DNA of 64,000 nt. Source: Candidatus Amulumruptor caecigallinarius. GTDB taxonomy: Bacteria > Bacteroidota > Bacteroidia > Bacteroidales > Muribaculaceae. Below the pieces are notes generated by a model. It worked only from the letters and a program-made list of their open reading frames with translations. It had not been told where the DNA came from and did not search any database. The position numbers and the translations under genes are program-made. This document shows positions 26,298 through 35,663 of this stretch, one piece after another. Each line of letters opens with the position of its first letter. The first letter of the stretch is position 1. The stretch is taken from the NCBI GenBank assembly GCA_023665605.1, contig JAMPDP010000001.1, positions 269,164 through 333,163 of the forward strand, given 5' to 3'.

Positions 26298-27329
26298 TCA
26301 GAAGGAGGATTTGCCTGCCGTGATGGCTGAAAAAGTGCGGTGCCGACGCAGATAGTACTGTGCGAGCAGGCTTATGCGGGGGCCGGTGCTTTGCTTCAGG
26401 AGGTTCGCGGAGGGTGAGGGGATGTCGGCGTAATGCTCGCGCACCATGCGGCGGTAGTCGCGGTGGGCACCGATGATGGCGGAAGCATTGCGCCACTTCA
26501 ACGTCACCACAAACATACCCCAGGCAAGAGTGTCGAGCAGCCGGCGACGCAACAGTGCCTTCCGGCGCACTTTATTGGGGAGGTTCTTGTGGAGCATCAG
26601 CAGCGAGTTGCGGAAGTTGAGGTAAGTCTTGCGCGGAGAGTCCGCAGGCAGCGATCCTCCACCCAGGTGCCACACACGGCTCTCTGGCACCACGGCGATG
26701 TCATCGCCCGCCAGACGCAGCCTCCAGCACAGGTCTATCTCCTCCATATGGGCAAAGAAGAGCGGGTCGAGTCCCCCGGCAGCGAGGTAACGCTCGGTGC
26801 GAACCATCAGGCAGGCTCCTGTTGCCCAGTCCACAAGGCGGGCATCGTCATATTGGCCAAAGTCGGTCTCCACATGCCCCATTACGCGCCCGCGACAGTA
26901 GGGATAGCCGTCGCGGTCCAGGAAGCCGCCGGAGGCACCCGCGTACTCGAAGCGGAACGGCTCGTTGAGGCTCAGCACCTTGGGTTGCACAGCGGCGGTG
27001 GCGGGGTGGGTCTCCATGTAGCGGTAGAGGGGCGTCAGCCAGTCATCTTTAACCTCCACATCGCTGTTGAGGAGCACCGTGTAGCAGCGTCCGGTGCGGC
27101 GGATGGCCTCATTGTACCCTTCGGCATAACCCAAGTTAGTGGGAAAACTTATCACCTGCACTTGTGGGAACTCCTCTGCGAGGAGCCGCAGGGAGTCGTC
27201 AGTGGAGCCGTTGTCGGCCACTATGATGTCGGCAATGCCGGCTGGTGTGTTGGCAATGACGGACGGCAGATAAGAGCGCAGCAGCTTAGCGCCGTTCCAG
27301 TTGAGTATTATGACCGCTACTGGTTTCAT
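26298..27329 (-). CDS. Family 2 glycosyltransferase
   Basis: GT-A fold glycosyltransferase, probably adding a sugar to a cell-surface glycan. The N-terminus MKPVAVIILNWNGAKLL is followed by IIVADNGSTDDS, VLLNSDVEVKDDWL (the DxD-like metal site is SDV) and FAHMEEIDLCWRLRLAGDDI, the ED-type catalytic region of this family. Its ATG overlaps the stop of the upstream acyltransferase gene (ATGA), which fixes the start at 27329 and indicates translational coupling. The donor and acceptor are unknown; the coupling to a lipid A-type acyltransferase suggests an envelope lipid or LPS role. Confidence 0.9.
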   Translation of the reverse strand: MKPVAVIILNWNGAKLLRSYLPSVIANTPAGIADIIVADNGSTDDSLRLLAEEFPQVQVISFPTNLGYAEGYNEAIRRTGRCYTVLLNSDVEVKDDWLTPLYRYMETHPATAAVQPKVLSLNEPFRFEYAGASGGFLDRDGYPYCRGRVMGHVETDFGQYDDARLVDWATGACLMVRTERYLAAGGLDPLFFAHMEEIDLCWRLRLAGDDIAVVPESRVWHLGGGSLPADSPRKTYLNFRNSLLMLHKNLPNKVRRKALLRRRLLDTLAWGMFVVTLKWRNASAIIGAHRDYRRMVREHYADIPSPSANLLKQSTGPRISLLAQYYLRRHRTFSAITAGKSSF

Positions 27330-28192
27330 GGTTGAACGTCTGTGGTTTGCGGGAGGGTGACGGGATGCTTCCAGCGGTTGTGGCTCCAAAGCCACCCGGC
27401 GGGGTCGGCGACGATGTTCTCTTCCAGAAGCCGTACATACTTCTCAGTGAGCTCGCCGGGTGCAAGGGTGGAGGCATCGTCGGCCATGGGCACTATGCTC
27501 ACGCGGTAATGGCCGCGGCGCTCGCGAAGCATCCGCATATACACCACCGGGGCTTTGAGCTTGCGGGCAAGGTGCTCGGTGCCGCTTATCATCAGTGTGG
27601 GCCGGTGGAGGAAAGTGGTGAGGTGGCCGGGGTCGGAATGGCTTGGTTTCTGGTCACTCATAAAGCCCGTCATGGAAGGGCGTCCGGTAGCGCGCAGGCG
27701 CAGCAGGTCGCGGATCACATTGTTCTTCTTGAAGCTGAGCGAGCCGAAGCGGGAGCGGAGCTTAAGGAAGAAGTGATCAGCGCGGGCGTTGCGCAACGGG
27801 CGGTACACCTGGGCAAACACGGGGCTGTTTTCGGCATGGCTCCAGAGGGTAATGGAGGGTGCCCACTCCCAGTTGCCGGTGTGAGCGAAGTAAGCTATGA
27901 GGGTTTTGCCTTGGCGCAGATACTCATCGACGAGCTCCACGTTCTCGTAAATCACGCGCCGCTTCATCTCCTTGTCACTGATGCTCAACAGTTTTATCGA
28001 CTCCACAAAGTTGTCGGCGAAGCGGCGATAGAACTCGCGGCTGATTTTGCGGATTTCCGCGGGCGACTTTTCGGGGAATGACCGCTCCAGATTGGTACGG
28101 ACCACACGACGGCGATAACGCACTATGTGATAAAGGATGGGTGCCAGCAGGTCTGACACCCTGTAAAGCGCCCACATCGGGAGCCAGGTCAT
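27326..28192 (-). CDS. LpxL/HtrB-type lipid A acyltransferase
   Basis: Membrane-associated acyltransferase that adds a secondary acyl chain to lipid A or a related lipid. The protein begins MTWLPMWALYRVSDLLAPIL, an N-terminal hydrophobic anchor, and has the catalytic HX4D/E motif as HTGNWEW, then GFMSDQKPS and a C-terminal DPAGWLWSHNRWKH typical of the family. The ATG at 28192 overlaps the mtaB stop (ATGA). With mtaB upstream and the glycosyltransferase downstream it forms a tightly coupled trio. The acyl specificity cannot be read from sequence. Confidence 0.92.
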   Translation of the reverse strand: MTWLPMWALYRVSDLLAPILYHIVRYRRRVVRTNLERSFPEKSPAEIRKISREFYRRFADNFVESIKLLSISDKEMKRRVIYENVELVDEYLRQGKTLIAYFAHTGNWEWAPSITLWSHAENSPVFAQVYRPLRNARADHFFLKLRSRFGSLSFKKNNVIRDLLRLRATGRPSMTGFMSDQKPSHSDPGHLTTFLHRPTLMISGTEHLARKLKAPVVYMRMLRERRGHYRVSIVPMADDASTLAPGELTEKYVRLLEENIVADPAGWLWSHNRWKHPVTLPQTTDVQP

Positions 28193-29529
28193 AAGGCTGC
28201 CACCTCCCCTCTGAGCAAGCACTCTCCCTCATCAAGGCCGCAGATCTCAGTCAGACGCACCGGCACGATGGTTCCGGCCAACGAGTCATCAGCCTCCACG
28301 GCCACTCGCAGATAGTTGTCGGTGAATCCGAGCAACGGCGTGTCTGTGTCACCCTCTTTTCGGTGCTCGAGTAGCACGGGGCGCGTTGTGCCGATGAAGC
28401 GCGCGGCAAATGAACGCACCTTGCTCTCGCTCAGGCGCAGCATCTCGGCAGTACGCCGCTGACGGTCGGCCGTGTTCACCACCCCGTCAAGGGTGAGGGC
28501 GCGGGTGCCTGGACGCTCGCTGTATGGGAACACGTGCAGACGCGATATGTCAAGGCTCTCCACCAGCCGGCGCGAGAGCTGATACTCCTCCTCGGTCTCG
28601 CCGCGTGCGCCGGTGATGAGGTCCACGCCTATGAAGGCATCAGGCATGGCACTGCGGATGGCAGCCACCTTGGCGACAAACAGTGCCGTGTCATAGTGGC
28701 GACGCATGAGCCGGAGCACGGTGTCGGAACCGCTTTGCAGCGGGGTGTGGAAGTGGGGCATGAAACTGCGTGACCCGGCCACGAAGCTGATGATGTCGTC
28801 ACTGAGCAAATCAGGCTCTATGGATGAGATGCGGTAACGGTCTATCCCCTCCACCTTGTCCAGCTCGCGTATCAGGTCAAGCAGCGTGTCTGAGCGGCCT
28901 TTGCCGAAGTCACCGATGTTCACGCCGGTGAGCACTATCTCGCGCCCTCCGTCAGCGGCAACTTGCTGTGCCTGTGCCAAGAGCTTGTCGATTGTGCCAC
29001 TGCGGCTGCGCCCGCGAGCCATCGGAATGGTGCAGTATGAGCAATAGTAGTCACACCCGTCCTGCACTTTGAGAAAGTGGCGGGTACGGTCGTCCGCGGA
29101 GCAGGCCGGCACAAACTCGCGGAGCTCACGCGAGGGGGGCACCTCGGTCACGGGGGCATGCTCTGCTTCCCAGCGGTCAAGGTACTCGGCAATGCGGCTC
29201 TTGGCATTGGTGCCAATCACGATGTCAACTCCCTCGATACCGCTCACTTCCTTGGGCTTTAATTGGGCGTAGCACCCGGTCACCAGCACCGTGGCATGCG
29301 GATGCCTCCGCACTATGCCTCGTATGGCCTGACGGCACTTCTTGTCGGCAAGCTCGGTGACGCTGCAGGTGTTCACCACCACCAAGTCAGGTTCCTCCCC
29401 ATCAGCAGCGCGCACGAAGCCTCTTTCGGCAAGCTGACGTCCCACCGAAGAACTTTCGGCAAAGTTGAGCTTGCAGCCGAAGGTGCGGAACATCACGCGG
29501 CGTGTACCGAAAGTGTCATTGTTAATCAT
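28189..29529 (-). CDS. mtaB: tRNA t6A37 methylthiotransferase MtaB
   Basis: Radical SAM enzyme that converts t6A37 in tRNA to ms2t6A37. It has the MtaB-type N-terminal domain start RTFGCKLNFAES with its iron-sulfur cysteines (GCK, NTCSV, VTGCYAQ), the radical SAM motif CDYYCSYC (near residue 160), the central SPDLL-like IEPDLLSDD region and a C-terminal TRAM domain. The GCKLN motif separates MtaB from MiaB and RimO. The length of 446 residues is normal. It overlaps the acyltransferase gene by four bases. Confidence 0.94.
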   Translation of the reverse strand: MINNDTFGTRRVMFRTFGCKLNFAESSSVGRQLAERGFVRAADGEEPDLVVVNTCSVTELADKKCRQAIRGIVRRHPHATVLVTGCYAQLKPKEVSGIEGVDIVIGTNAKSRIAEYLDRWEAEHAPVTEVPPSRELREFVPACSADDRTRHFLKVQDGCDYYCSYCTIPMARGRSRSGTIDKLLAQAQQVAADGGREIVLTGVNIGDFGKGRSDTLLDLIRELDKVEGIDRYRISSIEPDLLSDDIISFVAGSRSFMPHFHTPLQSGSDTVLRLMRRHYDTALFVAKVAAIRSAMPDAFIGVDLITGARGETEEEYQLSRRLVESLDISRLHVFPYSERPGTRALTLDGVVNTADRQRRTAEMLRLSESKVRSFAARFIGTTRPVLLEHRKEGDTDTPLLGFTDNYLRVAVEADDSLAGTIVPVRLTEICGLDEGECLLRGEVAAL

Positions 29530-29622
29530 GCAATGTGATGGTGGTAGGTTACTTAGAGCGCTCCTCAGGCACTTCTGTCGCGGAGACTCAGCACCTGCAC
29601 GTCATACCCCGCGGTCTCCCTC

Positions 29623-29871
29623 TCAGGGATTGTATAGGTCGGGGTTGAAGAAGTTAAGAATCTCCATGGAGTGCTCCAGCAGTGCGGGAGCCGGCCCCGC
29701 AGGATAGAGAGCAGCGGCCTCTGTGTAATCATTGATAGCCTCACGGCGGCGCTGGAGGCTCCAGAGTAGCTTGCCGCGGCTCACCAGCAGGTCAGCCTTG
29801 CTCTGGGCGTTGGCAGTGCCTTGGATTTTTGCAGTCAGCTCTGCTATGGCATTTGTGTCAGCCGTGGTCAT
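29623..29871 (-). CDS. Small TPR-like protein abutting tRNA-Leu
   Basis: An 82-residue protein beginning MTTADTNAIAELTAKI with a single TPR-like helix pair (LLVSRGKLLWSLQRRREAIN, DYTEAAALYPAG) and ending in MEILNFFNPDLYNP. I recall this tail from short conserved Bacteroidetes proteins of unknown function. Its ATG begins one base after the 3' end of the upstream tRNA-Leu on the same strand. No leader or ribosome-binding site is therefore possible after tRNA processing. Confidence 0.75.
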   Translation of the reverse strand: MTTADTNAIAELTAKIQGTANAQSKADLLVSRGKLLWSLQRRREAINDYTEAAALYPAGPAPALLEHSMEILNFFNPDLYNP

Positions 29872-29872
29872 G

Positions 29873-29956
29873 TGCTCGAAGCGGGACTCGAACCCGCACA
29901 GCCGCGATGGCCAAGGGATTTTAAGTCCCTCGTGTCTACCATTCCACCATTCGAGC
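29873..29956 (-). tRNA. tRNA-Leu (TAA anticodon)
   Basis: The acceptor GCTCGAA pairs with TTCGAGC with discriminator A. The sequence has the class II TGGTGGAATGGTAGACAC D-arm of tRNA-Leu, an anticodon stem GAGGGA-like arm around the anticodon TAA, a long variable arm and a T arm GCGGG/CCCGC. CCA is not encoded. The following base is immediately succeeded by the ATG of a small gene. Confidence 0.95.
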
Positions 29957-30029
29957 AGCCCTATATCAGGCTAAGAGGCCTGTTTAGGGTGAGGGCGGAG
30001 CTTTCGCCCCGCTAATGGGCTCAGATAAA

Positions 30030-30065
30030 TCTTATAAGTCTTATAAATCTTATAAGTCTTATAAG
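30030..30065. repeat. Four tandem 9-bp units with palindromic core
   Basis: Four consecutive copies of TCTTATAAG, the second ending in A, sit between the zinc-ribbon gene stop and tRNA-Leu. Each perfect unit contains the 8-bp palindrome CTTATAAG. The array could be a slippage product or a multi-site operator. Confidence 0.8.
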
Positions 30066-30076
30066 TCAACCGGCGT

Positions 30077-30847
30077 TTAGGCGTTCTCGGTGACGCCGGC
30101 GAGCTCGGGGTCAATCATGATGCGGCCGCAATACTCGCAGACGATAATCTTCTTGTGGAGCTTAATCTCCATCTGCTTCTGCGGCGGGATGCGGTTGAAG
30201 CAGCCACCGCATGCATTGCGCTGGATGTAGACGATACCCAGGCCGTTGCGGGCGTTCTTGCGGATGCGCTTGAAGGCGGTGAGGGTGCGGGCATCAATCT
30301 CGGGTTCGATGGCCTTGGCCTGCTCGCGGAGGTTCTCCTCATCCTGCTTGGTCTCGTTGACAATTTCTTCGAGCTCGGCGCGCTTCTCTGCGAGCACATG
30401 CTCCTGGTCGGCGAGCTTCTCGCGGGTAGATGCGGCCTCCACATTCTTCATGTCGATAGCACGCTCAGCCTCTACGATATGCTTCTGGGCGAGCTCGATC
30501 TCCAACGTCTGGAACTCTATCTCCTTGGTCAGAAGGTCAAACTCGCGGTTGTTGCGCACCTCGTCGAGCTGCTTCTTGTATTTCTCAATCTTGGCCTGGG
30601 CCTCGTTGATTTTCTCCTTTTCGGCGAGGCTCTTCTTGCGGAGGTCTTCCACTTCGCGCTTCTGGTTCTCGATGCGCGTCTGGAGGCCGGCTACGTTGTC
30701 TTCAAGGTCGCGCACCTCCAGAGGAAGCTCTCCGCGCACCGTGCGGATGCGGTCAATCTGCGACAGGAGGGTCTGCAGCTTGTAGAGGCTCTTGAGGCGC
30801 TCCTCAACGGAGTGGGTCTGCTCGGCTTGTTTGTTGTCTGTGGCCAT
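30077..30847 (-). CDS. Coiled-coil protein with C4 zinc ribbon
   Basis: A 256-residue protein with a long heptad-rich coiled coil (about residues 20-190) followed by a zinc ribbon with CGGCFNRI and CEYCGRIM as the two Cys-x-x-Cys knuckles. This architecture is the zf-RING_7 family found across bacteria, of uncertain molecular role; nucleic-acid binding has been proposed for relatives. It lies 6 bases downstream of the NIF3-like gene, a pairing seen in other genomes. The start MATDNKQAEQ is unambiguous. Confidence 0.9.
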   Translation of the reverse strand: MATDNKQAEQTHSVEERLKSLYKLQTLLSQIDRIRTVRGELPLEVRDLEDNVAGLQTRIENQKREVEDLRKKSLAEKEKINEAQAKIEKYKKQLDEVRNNREFDLLTKEIEFQTLEIELAQKHIVEAERAIDMKNVEAASTREKLADQEHVLAEKRAELEEIVNETKQDEENLREQAKAIEPEIDARTLTAFKRIRKNARNGLGIVYIQRNACGGCFNRIPPQKQMEIKLHKKIIVCEYCGRIMIDPELAGVTENA

Positions 30848-30853
30848 TGTGGA

Positions 30854-31645
30854 TTACAGATATAATATTGGGTTTGTTTCTCGTGATTGCTGAACTGCAA
30901 AGTTAGGAAATTTTTCCCTAATAATGCGCTCTATGATTGACTTGGTACATTCCTCGCTCTCGAAGTGGCCGATGTCGGCCAACAGTATGCGCGGCGCATA
31001 GTCCACAAACTTGTGGTAGGAGGTGTCGGAGGTGACATAGGCATCAGCACCGGCAGCTATGGCCATGTCAATCATGGAGGAGCCGCTGCCGCCGCACAGA
31101 GCCACCCGGCTCACTGATCGGCGTCCGGGACGCTTGTCGGGATCGGAGCTGCGCACTACCGGCGAGCGCATGGCTCTCTTGACTCGCTCCACGAAGACTT
31201 CCCACTCCTCGGGCTCAGGGAGCGAGCCGATGGCACCGCCACCACTGCGGGTGTCGAGGGGAGTGACATCGCGCAGACCGAGCCGCGAGGCTATCACATG
31301 CGACACGCCGTAAGGAGCCGGGGCATTGTCAAGCGCGGTGTGGAGGGCATAGATGCCCACCCCCTTGTCTATGGCGCGGAGCACGGTCTGTTCCACCATA
31401 GTGAGTCCGGTGATGCTTTTCAGCCCGCTGAACAGTGAGGGGTGATGGCTCACCACCATGTTGCAGCCGCGTGCCACGGCCTCATCGACTCTCTCGGGAG
31501 AGGCATCGACGCACACAAGCACGCCGGTACACACCCGCTGCGGGTCGCCCACCTGCCAGCCGCAGTTGTCATAACCTTCCTGGAGCTGCAGTGGAGCGCG
31601 CTCCTCAAGGGCAGCTGCTATATCGGCACAGCGCAGTTCTGTCAT
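30854..31645 (-). CDS. NIF3-like dinuclear metal protein
   Basis: NIF3/YbgI (DUF34) family protein, usually a toroidal hexamer binding two metals; a GTP cyclohydrolase-like or metal-maintenance role has been proposed but is not settled. Metal-site motifs are [10 protein letters not shown] near residue 66 and [10 protein letters not shown] near the C-terminus. The length of 263 residues is the short form, without the inserted PII-like domain of longer relatives. Its ATG overlaps the aspS stop (ATGA). Confidence 0.92.
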
Positions 31646-33405
31646 TTCTTGTCGGCTGGCTCCGCCAGACGGATGCAGAGCTCCTGAAGCTGCGAGTCAT
31701 CGATAGCGCTCGGAGCGTCTATCATGGTGTCGCGGCCGGAGTTGTTCTTGGGGAATGCTATGACATCACGTATCGAGTCAAGCCCGGCAAGGATGCTCAC
31801 GAAGCGGTCAAAGCCAAAGGCGAGGCCGCCGTGAGGGGGTGCTCCGAACTTGAAGGCATCCATAAGGAAGCCAAACTTATAGCGGGCATCCTCGTCGCTG
31901 AGGCCAAGGAGCTTGAACATCTTCTGCTGCAGGTCACTCTCATGGATACGGATTGAGCCACCCCCGAGCTCGTTGCCGTTCACCACCATGTCGTAGGCTG
32001 TGGCGCGGACCTCGCCGGTGGCAGTGTCGAGCTTGTCGATATCCTCCGGGTTGGGTGACGTGAAGGGGTGGTGCATGGCGTAGTAGCGCTGAGTCTCGTC
32101 ATCCCACTCAAACAGAGGGAAGTCTATCACCCACAGGCAGCTGAACTTCTGCGGGTCACGCAGACCGAGACGTGAGCCCATCTCCAGACGGAGCTCGCAG
32201 AGCTGCTTGCGGGTCTTCATAGTGGCACCGGCGAGGATGAGCATCAGGTCGCCGGGCTTTGCTCCACCCTTGTCGAGCCATCCACGGAGCTGGTCGTCTG
32301 TGAAGAACTTGCCCACGGAACTCTTGATGGAGCCGTCGACTTCGAGCTTCACCCACATCATGCCCTTGGCGCCAACCTGCGGACGCTTCACAAAGTCGGT
32401 GAGCTGGTCGAGCTGCTTGCGGGTGTAACCGGCGCAGCCGGGAGCGACGATGGCTCCCACATACTCGGCATCGTCCATCACGCTGAAACCGCTGCCGGCG
32501 GTGAGCTCCTTCAGCTCCACAAACTCCATGCCGAAGCGGGTGTCAGGCTTGTCGGAGCCGTACAGACGCATGGCATCGGCCCAGGTCATGCGGGGGAACG
32601 GGTCGGTGAAGTCTATATCCTTCACATACTTGAAGATATGTTTCACCAGACCCTCAAACATCTGCAGCACATCCTCCTGCTCGACGAACGACATCTCGCA
32701 GTCGATCTGTGTGAACTCGGGCTGACGGTCGGCGCGCAGGTCTTCGTCACGGAAGCACTTCACTATCTGGAAGTAACGGTCGAAGCCGCTCACCATAAGC
32801 AGCTGCTTGAACGTCTGGGGGGACTGCGGCAGGGCGTAGAACTCGCCGGGATTCATGCGCGAGGGCACCACGAAGTCGCGGGCACCCTCGGGGGTGGACT
32901 TGATGAGTACGGGGGTCTCCACTTCCAGGAAGCCCTTGGAGTCGAGATAACGGCGTATCTCGAAGGCCATGCGGTGACGCAGCTCAAGGTTGCGGCGCAC
33001 AGCGTTGCGGCGCAGGTCGAGGTAACGGAAGCGCAAACGCAGCTCATCGCCGCCATCGGTGTCATCCTCAATGGTGAAGGGGGGTACCTCCGAAGGGTTA
33101 AGCACCTTCAGCTCCGTGGCGGCAATCTCGATGTCGCCGGTGGGGAGGTTGGGGTTCTTGGAGGTACGCTCGGTGACTGTACCGGTCACCTGCACCACAT
33201 ACTCGCGCCCGAGCTTGTTGGCAGCTTCGGTCAGAACGACGTTGTCTTCCTCAGTGAAGACTATCTGGGTGATACCGTAGCGGTCACGGAGGTCTACAAA
33301 GGTCATGCCGCCCATCTTGCGGGTGCGTTGCACCCACCCGGCGAGTGTCACCGTGGTGCCGGCATCGGCGAGACGAAGCTCGCCGCATGTTTTGGTTCTG
33401 AACAT
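31642..33405 (-). CDS. aspS: Aspartyl-tRNA synthetase
   Basis: Class II synthetase charging tRNA-Asp. The N-terminal OB-fold anticodon-binding domain ([24 protein letters not shown]) precedes the catalytic domain. That domain has motif 1, motif 2 ([18 protein letters not shown]) and motif 3 ([13 protein letters not shown]), with the bacterial insertion domain between motifs 2 and 3. The length of 587 residues is normal for the bacterial type. It lies downstream of lpxA and is coupled to the NIF3-like gene. Confidence 0.98.
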
Positions 33406-33465
33406 GTTATCAGTGATATGGACCGGGAGGGTGTGGCCACACTCCCGCAGGTGTGTTTGTCTGGA

Positions 33466-34242
33466 TTATACGTAACCGCGAATGATGCCGCGCTTGGAGT
33501 TGCGCACGAACATTACTATCTCGTCGCGCTCGGCAGTGGCGGGAAGTTCGGCCTCTATGCGCTCCACAGCATCGGTGTTGTTGAGGCCGGAGAGGTAGAG
33601 GTAACGGTAGATTTCCTGGATTTCGCGGATCACTTCGCTGGAGAAGTTGCGGCGGCGCAGCCCCACTGAGTTGATGCCGGCGTAGGCTATCGGCTCACGG
33701 GCAGCTTTGACGTAGGGGGGGATATCCTTGTTGATGAGCGCACCGCCCTGAATCATCACGTGTGCGCCAATGTGGCAGAACTGGTGCACAAGAGCACCGC
33801 CGCCTATGATGGCATAGTTGTCCACCACCACCTCGCCGGCAAGTTGGGTGGCATTGCTCATTATCACATGGTCGCCCACTACGCAATCATGTGCCACGTG
33901 GCAGTAAGCCATAATCAGACAGTTCTTACCCACCACGGTACGCCCCTTGGCGGCGGTGCCGCGGTTTACGGTGACGCACTCGCGGATCACGGTGTTGTCG
34001 CCGATGATGGCCGTGGTCTCCTCACCGCGGAATTTCAGATCCTGCGGGATGGCGGAGATGACAGCTCCGGGGAAGATGGTGACGTTCTTGCCGATACGCG
34101 CACCCTCGAGGATGGTGACATTGCTGCCGATACGTGTGCCTTCGCCGATCTCCACATTCTTGTCGATGGTGACGAACGGCTCGATTACCACGGTATCGGC
34201 AATCTTGGCGTCGGGGTGGACGTAGCTTAACGGTTGCTTCAT
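33466..34242 (-). CDS. lpxA: UDP-GlcNAc acyltransferase
   Basis: First enzyme of lipid A synthesis, transferring a 3-hydroxyacyl chain from ACP to UDP-GlcNAc. The left-handed beta-helix hexapeptide repeats are obvious (for example IGEGTRIGSNVTILEGARIG), the catalytic histidine lies in MAYCHVAHDCVVGD, and the family motifs IQGGALINKDIPPYVKA and INSVGLRRRNF are present. It is 38 bases downstream of the fused lpxC/fabZ gene, as is common in Bacteroidetes. Confidence 0.97.
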   Translation of the reverse strand: MKQPLSYVHPDAKIADTVVIEPFVTIDKNVEIGEGTRIGSNVTILEGARIGKNVTIFPGAVISAIPQDLKFRGEETTAIIGDNTVIRECVTVNRGTAAKGRTVVGKNCLIMAYCHVAHDCVVGDHVIMSNATQLAGEVVVDNYAIIGGGALVHQFCHIGAHVMIQGGALINKDIPPYVKAAREPIAYAGINSVGLRRRNFSSEVIREIQEIYRYLYLSGLNNTDAVERIEAELPATAERDEIVMFVRNSKRGIIRGYV

Positions 34243-34280
34243 TGCTCTTTCGGTGTGTTTTTATGAAATAGAGGTGAAGG

Positions 34281-35663
34281 TCACTTGTTCTTGATAATCT
34301 GTGCCATGAACTCGCACTCGGTGACAATCTTGTCACCGACGAAGGCGTAACCCTTCATCACGGCGCATCCGCGGCGAAGCTCTGTCATGAACGACACGTG
34401 GAACAGCAGCGTGTCGCCCGGCACCACCTTCTGACGGAACTTCACGTTGTCTATCTTCATGAAGTAGGTGCTGTAATGCTCAGGATCGGGAAGCTGCGAG
34501 AGCACCAGGATGCCTCCGGTCTGAGCCATAGCTTCCACCTGGAGTACGCCGGGCATCACCGGTTCCTGCGGGAAGTGGCCCTGGAAGAAGGGCTCGTTGG
34601 TGGTCACATTCTTCACGCCGACTATGTAATTGGTGCCGCGCTCTATGATTTTGTCAATAAGCAGGAACGGATAGCGGTGAGGCAGCAGGTCGCGGATCTG
34701 GTTGTTGTCAAGCAGTGCAGGCTTGTTGGGGTCATAAACCGGGGCTTGCACCTCCTGGCGCTTCAGTTCCTTACGCACTTTCTTGGCGAAGGTGGTGTTG
34801 ATGGTGTGCCCGGGGCGTGTGGCTATCACCTTACCGCGCAGGGGGCGGCCTATCAGTGCAAGGTCGCCAATCACGTCAAGCAGCTTGTGGCGAGCGGGCT
34901 CGTTGGCATAGGCCAGAGGGCGATTGTTGATGTAGCCGAACTCGCTCACGTCCTTGCGGGGAACGTTCATCAGGTCGGCCAGTCGGTCAAGCTCGCTCTG
35001 GGGCATCTCGCGGTCATACACCACGATGGCGTTGTCGAGGTCGCCACCCTTTATCAGGCCGGCCTTGAGCAGCGGCTCCACCTCACGGACGAATACGAAA
35101 GTGCGGCTCCCGCTCACCTCTGTCGCGAAGCTGTCAAGGCTCTCAAGAGCGGCATACTGGTTGGAGAGAACGGGGGAGTCGAAGTCCACCATCACGTCTA
35201 AGCTGAAGTGGTCGTCGGGGAGTACCACGATGGAAGCTCCGGTGGCCTCATCTTTCAGCTCCATGCGCTGACGCACGATGTAAAACTCCTTGTCGGCGTT
35301 CTGCTCGTCAAGGCCGCAGGCAGCGATTTTCTCCACATACTCGCGGGAGCTGCCGTCAAGTATAGGCATCTCCGCACCGTTAAGCTCAATGATGCAATTG
35401 TCGATGCCGGCGGCGTAGAGAGCTGCCATGGCGTGTTCTATGGTGCTGACGGAGGCTTCTCCCTTGGTCACTGTGGTGCCTCGGTCGGTGCTGACCACGT
35501 TCTCGGCCACGGCATCAACCTCGGGGGCTCCGTCGAGGTCGGTGCGACGGAATTTGTAGCCGGTGCCTTCGGGCGCGGGGTTGAAGGTGGCTGTAATCTG
35601 TGCTCCGGTATGCAAGCCCTTTCCGCTGACGCTGAACGGGGCCTTTAAGGTTATCTGCTTCAT
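34281..35663 (-). CDS. lpxC/fabZ: Bifunctional LpxC deacetylase / FabZ dehydratase
   Basis: Fusion protein typical of Bacteroidetes. Residues 1-300 are LpxC, the committed zinc deacetylase of lipid A synthesis, with [18 protein letters not shown] and the C-terminal [16 protein letters not shown]. Residues 310-460 are FabZ, a 3-hydroxyacyl-ACP dehydratase of fatty-acid synthesis, with [14 protein letters not shown] and the active-site [20 protein letters not shown]. Fusing the two couples the shared 3-hydroxyacyl precursor pool to lipid A. It is flanked by lpxD and lpxA. Confidence 0.97.

Follow-up and report, generated by a model that had tools for sequence, protein, structure and literature searches.

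Arrangement of genes around the tRNA-Leu(UAA)-tpr junction

Within the window, that is, the whole stretch of 64,000 nucleotides analyzed here, five features follow one another on the minus strand: the gene of a C4-type zinc-ribbon protein (znrib, Zn_ribbon_9; 30077..30847), a tRNA-Leu(UAA) gene (29872..29956), a small protein gene designated tpr (29623..29871), mtaB coding for the tRNA t6A37 methylthiotransferase (28189..29529), and a lipid A biosynthesis acyltransferase gene (27326..28222) overlapping the end of mtaB. The spacer between znrib and the tRNA (29957..30076, minus strand) is strongly structured (three hairpins, -44.4 kcal/mol, z -5.0) and contains no TAnnTTTG element, and the 93-nt gap between tpr and mtaB has no visible promoter. 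Tandem 9-bp repeats of the CTTATAAG type lie behind znrib (30025..30067); repeats resembling this type are also present behind znrib in the sister species (G001).

Read along the minus strand, the mature body of tRNA-Leu(UAA) extends from 29956 to 29873, followed by a single C at 29872 and then by the ATG (29869..29871) of an 82-codon ORF ending at 29623, just as the earlier note had described. The acceptor stem (GCTCGAA/TTCGAGC) has its last base at 29874 and the discriminator A is 29873; ARAGORN placed tRNA-Leu(TAA) at 29872-29956 of the minus strand, with the C included. CCA is not encoded, and one copy of the gene was found in the genome. No ATG, GTG or TTG occurs 5' of ATG29871 in the tpr frame back to the previous stop codon.

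The status of the single C was assessed by comparison with other tRNA genes. A C directly follows the discriminator in all 44 tRNA rows of the same genome (43 distinct genes, as tRNA-Trp was entered twice; one Rfam hit below the cut-off was left out), while 11 of them encode the complete CCA. The same C was templated in 30/30 tRNAs checked with Rfam end points, which are independent of ARAGORN, in 43/43 tRNAs at the loci examined from the bacterial family, and in 47/48 tRNAs of other Bacteroidales families (30 loci, 15 genomes), the one exception being a row that ARAGORN left unassigned. Being kept in every gene, the C after the discriminator is best read as tRNA position C74, and the spacer is accordingly counted as 0 nt: the start codon of tpr abuts the tRNA gene. 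Across the Bacteroidales tRNA loci examined, C74 is templated practically always and CCA is not, and position 75 varies. The constancy of the templated C74 suggests a 3' processing that retains this base on the tRNA.

Such spacing was found to be a single case. None of 34 tRNA-Leu(TAA) genes of relatives has an ATG-led ORF of at least 60 codons nearer than 18 nt, and within the same genome only tRNA-Gln(CTG) comes near, with a 60-codon ATG-led ORF 3 nt past its C74 (L112).

Among the tRNA loci of the genome that were examined, ARAGORN identified three leucine tRNAs (GAG, TAA and TAG), and tRNA-Leu(UAA) is probably the sole reader of UUA and UUG, although a leucine tRNA gene may have been missed because the genome consists of 19 contigs. 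Strong selection on the expression of a likely sole UUA/UUG reader is to be expected.

The tpr gene and its product

The gene encodes an 82-aa protein with a predicted TPR fold and the C-terminal motif FFNPDLYNP, conserved family-wide. Of 297 genomes of the bacterial family, 267 have a homologue (198/204 among the good ones), as do 35/60 relatives in a separate set. The homologues measure about 75-105 codons, and an FFNPDLYNP-like C-terminus is common to them. The possibility that the ORF is spurious was rejected on the strength of the family-wide count, and the TPR-like gene proposed in the earlier note is real. As the ORF is a conserved gene, the junction is in this sense not a product of chance.

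The Pfam TPR_2 match is below the curated cut-off (E 4.1e-4), and the structure model built from 30 sequences reached a mean pLDDT of 92.7, with the predicted fold beginning at residue 3 and the first helix spanning residues 3-18, so that nothing seems to be missing N-terminally of Met 1. ATG29871 fits the starts of homologues, and the N-termini of the window and sister proteins are alike (MTAD vs MTTAD). A start codon further downstream, conserved in homologues, was looked for in the sequences and not found, and this candidate was rejected by the homologue starts together with the modelled fold, both of which bear out the start assigned earlier. The best solved relative of the protein detected with Foldseek is BF1650 of Bacteroides fragilis (PDB 2KC7; TMq 0.78, 32% identity), which has a similarly small TPR fold, although the Foldseek E is only 4.8e-3. 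TPR helix pairs together with an NPDLYNP-type C-terminal motif are present within the protein's own family.

Conservation of the junction

Conservation of the junction among relatives, which the earlier note had listed for checking, was not borne out. The junction was absent from all 55 homologue loci (L002-L056, the window's own locus excluded), each inspected over as much as 1.5 kb of flanking DNA (3 kb in the case of L031), and tpr was not found beside tRNA-Leu in 29 tRNA-Leu loci of relatives (L058-L086), these being the tRNA matches closest to that of the window rather than a random sample from the 272 matching genomes. The genus has one further genome, that of the sister species, in which tpr and tRNA-Leu reside on different contigs (C6 and C2, respectively). 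The tpr contig of the sister also carries mtaB, at a distance of some 13 kb, and znrib is located on a separate contig. More generally, the neighbours of tpr vary by lineage. The junction is thus private to the species as far as sampled, and a gene rearrangement seems to have produced it. A search of the phage collection returned tRNA-Leu matches only.

With the junction absent from all relatives examined, a conserved regulatory module was rejected. Likewise, feedback through UUA/UUG codons was discarded, as tpr contains 0 TTA and 0 TTG codons; given this codon content and the lack of conservation, nothing points to a regulatory circuit, and the suggestion that the junction links tRNA-Leu supply to the expression of the protein is unsupported.

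A tRNA gene was located within about 1.5 kb of tpr in 6/55 loci, four of them from one genus, and we did not consider this convincing as an enrichment of tpr near tRNA genes. In one other genus (L017, L039, L049 and L050) tRNA-Leu(TAA) follows tpr at a distance of 206-599 nt, the two genes pointing the same way or opposite ways. In another genome (L051, 1147-1408 in gene orientation) two tRNA-Val genes closely precede tpr, but a hairpin and a T-run intervene; tpr has two possible ATGs there, and 4 nt separate the end of the T-run from the later one.

Promoters and proposed transcriptional read-through

The Bacteroidota promoter element TAnnTTTG has been reported at about -7 (PMC7366714) and at -12 to -5 (PMC9723704). 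It occurs within 60 nt upstream of tRNA-Leu(TAA) in 33/33 relatives with enough upstream DNA (L071, which has none, was left out). A weight matrix was built from these sites and applied to 120 nt upstream of each tRNA gene. In the genome under study 30/44 tRNA rows scored at least 9.9 bits, typical tRNA promoters ranging from 9.9 to 17.4 bits, and the best site upstream of tRNA-Leu(UAA), i.e., in the znrib-tRNA spacer, reached 4.2 bits. A missing consensus does not equal a missing promoter, because 14/44 tRNA rows also failed to reach 9.9 bits; half of these (7) were flagged as downstream members of clusters, the other 7 were not.

For tpr, TAnnTTTG was found within 80 nt of the gene in 27/53 homologues, shuffled sequences averaging 2.4; the 53 loci are the 55 mentioned above minus L024 (no tblastn hit) and L025 (no usable ATG). 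The predicted leader of the sister tpr is 2 nt long. Leaderless tpr mRNAs as a family-wide trait were nevertheless rejected, predicted leaders shorter than 10 nt being confined to 4/53 loci, the sister included. In the sister species tRNA-Leu(UAA), tpr and mtaB each have a promoter-like element of their own, that of mtaB being TATATTTG. In the window, the consensus search recognized no promoter for tRNA-Leu(UAA), tpr or mtaB, and site scoring also led us to reject promoters located within the tRNA gene or between tpr and mtaB.

The strongest candidate is located further upstream. The sequence TAACTTTG (30898..30905, minus strand; 16.8 bits), a predicted Bacteroidota primary-sigma -7 element of znrib inside the 3' end of nif3, is the best minus-strand site in 28000-34500 and the only strong one upstream of the tRNA; the second and third best (10.9 and 9.9 bits) fall within the coding sequences of mtaB and aspS. 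TAnnTTTG is present within 110 nt upstream of znrib in 9/10 relatives.

The tRNA and tpr share a strand and abut, with no terminator between them, as is characteristic of co-transcripts: in the 60 nt past tRNA-Leu(UAA) there is no stem of more than 4 pairs and no T-run, and 3' of tRNA-Leu(TAA) in relatives a stem of at least 8 pairs occurs in 19/34 and a T-run of at least 4 in 28/34 cases. In the sister species the hairpin after tRNA-Leu(TAA) is also weak. Regarding the tRNA-mRNA hybrid transcribed from the tRNA promoter, as envisaged earlier, co-transcription is likely, and it is the tRNA promoter that could not be recognized.

A proposed route to a leaderless tpr mRNA and its alternatives

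We propose, with a probability of about one half, that a rearrangement put an apparently single-copy tRNA into a protein operon, and that read-through followed by tRNA 3' maturation releases a leaderless (C)AUG mRNA. The formerly independent tRNA, tpr and mtaB would have been joined in tandem behind znrib, and RNA polymerase starting at the znrib promoter (30898-30905) would read through znrib-tRNA-tpr-mtaB. RNase P would cut at 29956/29957, and the tRNA 3' cut would fall either after A73, leaving an mRNA that begins with CAUG, or after C74, leaving AUG at the very 5' end. The freed tpr mRNA, with little structure predicted early in the ORF, would then be translated as a leaderless message; special regulation would be unneeded, while tRNA maturation and tpr expression would become coupled in cis. 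The start codon is located directly at the tRNA 3' end, the position expected for a tRNA-punctuated leaderless mRNA, and the zero spacing supports the earlier prediction that 3' processing would yield such a message. A more far-reaching version, to which we attach only a tentative, lower weight, holds that the UUA/UUG tRNA, maybe the sole reader of these codons, is made only in the protein operon and is cut 3' exactly at the AUG, so that every mRNA would be leaderless from the outset and made in constant proportion to the tRNA, mtaB lying downstream.

As for the nucleases, the genome encodes a homologue of RNase Z, which scores 278.6 bits, below the family cut-off of 292.95. RNase Z reportedly cleaves on the 3' side of the discriminator and is suppressed by a C directly following it; with one CCA-less substrate in vitro, half of the cuts by the B. 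subtilis enzyme fell 5-6 nt downstream (PMC7479834), and a cut of this kind would destroy the AUG. A precedent for a cut after C74 is offered, by analogy, by Streptomyces coelicolor, where most tRNAs that encode CCA are processed between C74 and C75 (PMC4681348). The structured znrib-tRNA spacer could stop read-through and counts against our explanation. Leaderless mRNAs are also rare in the phylum, about 3.7% of 5' UTRs in B. thetaiotaomicron being shorter than 10 nt (PMC7366714).

The arrangement could otherwise be a neutral accident, in which the genes were joined by rearrangement, a promoter that departs from the consensus and lies in the 120-nt spacer drives the tRNA, and tpr, with weak expression or none, is heading for loss. 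We regard this as rather doubtful, though still a serious competitor. It accords with the junction being private to the species as sampled, with tpr being missed in 30/297 family genomes (incomplete ones included) and thus perhaps dispensable, and with the sequence GAGCAC before the tpr ATG, in which -3 is not A, the base that favours initiation at this position in Flavobacterium (PMC6847099). However, the tpr ORF is intact, with its conserved C-terminus and a confidently predicted fold, and the best promoter site of the spacer scores just 4.2 bits. Alternatively, tpr might be translated from the unprocessed transcript in competition with tRNA maturation, as the precursor contains the AUG and only weak structure is predicted for the beginning of the ORF (-10.9 kcal/mol, z -0.1). 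This appears unlikely to us, the AUG of the unprocessed RNA being preceded by the stable acceptor stem, with no leader and the same unfavourable -3 base, and structure near the start codon is reported to hinder initiation (PMC6847099).

Two further explanations carry still less weight. The 3' ends of tRNA genes are common integration sites and the breakpoint is located at the tRNA end, so the junction might be a scar of an integrated mobile element, or else an assembly misjoin. We consider this very unlikely, since the 3' end of the tRNA is not duplicated in the window (the ground on which the scar was set aside) and the neighbours are housekeeping genes, and, as regards a misjoin, the junction is internal to a 1.59-Mb contig and the tRNA and tpr each have one match in the genome. 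Promoters inside genes do occur generally, and tpr could own one within the tRNA gene; this is the most improbable reading of all, because the tRNA sequence is constrained by its own function and the best site in 29860-29990 scores 2.5 bits against the 9.9-17.4 bits typical of the genome. By this sequence scoring, the separate promoter within the tRNA, which the earlier note had named as evidence to the contrary, was not found.

Comparison with known systems

Should processing proceed as proposed, the locus would demonstrate that a bacterial tRNA, on being matured at its 3' end, can give rise to a translatable leaderless mRNA, and leaderless initiation could be tested cleanly in a phylum not using Shine-Dalgarno signals. 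The locus also illustrates how genes that a rearrangement has deprived of their own promoters can persist within an operon. No bacterial example of a zero-spacer tRNA-mRNA junction was found in the open-access literature, while tRNA-mRNA co-transcripts and leaderless mRNAs are each known already; the junction combines a striking anatomy with ordinary parts in a single species.

Bacterial tRNA-mRNA co-transcripts include tRNA-Trp before secE and tRNA-Thr before tuf, and in the genome studied here tRNA-Trp is followed by an ATG after 14 nt and tRNA-Thr(GGT) by a 394-codon ORF after 101 nt. The junction resembles these systems in having a tRNA and a protein gene on one strand and presumably in one transcript. 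In those systems, however, a leader is left or the mRNA lies upstream, whereas here the spacer is zero, so that tRNA processing would yield a leaderless mRNA. In the tRNA punctuation model of animal mitochondria, excision of tRNAs sets the 5' ends of mRNAs, which have almost no leader. Excision of tRNA-Leu(UAA) would define the 5' end of the tpr mRNA in the same way, although at a single junction of a bacterial chromosome. The E. coli secG leuU transcript, known from a title cited in PMC3985628, is another bacterial co-transcript. Finally, the predicted message would share an AUG at or near the 5' end with the leaderless mRNAs described in Bacteroidota (PMC7366714, PMC9723704, PMC6847099), from which it would differ in that their leader is set by the transcription start and that of tpr by the proposed tRNA cleavage.
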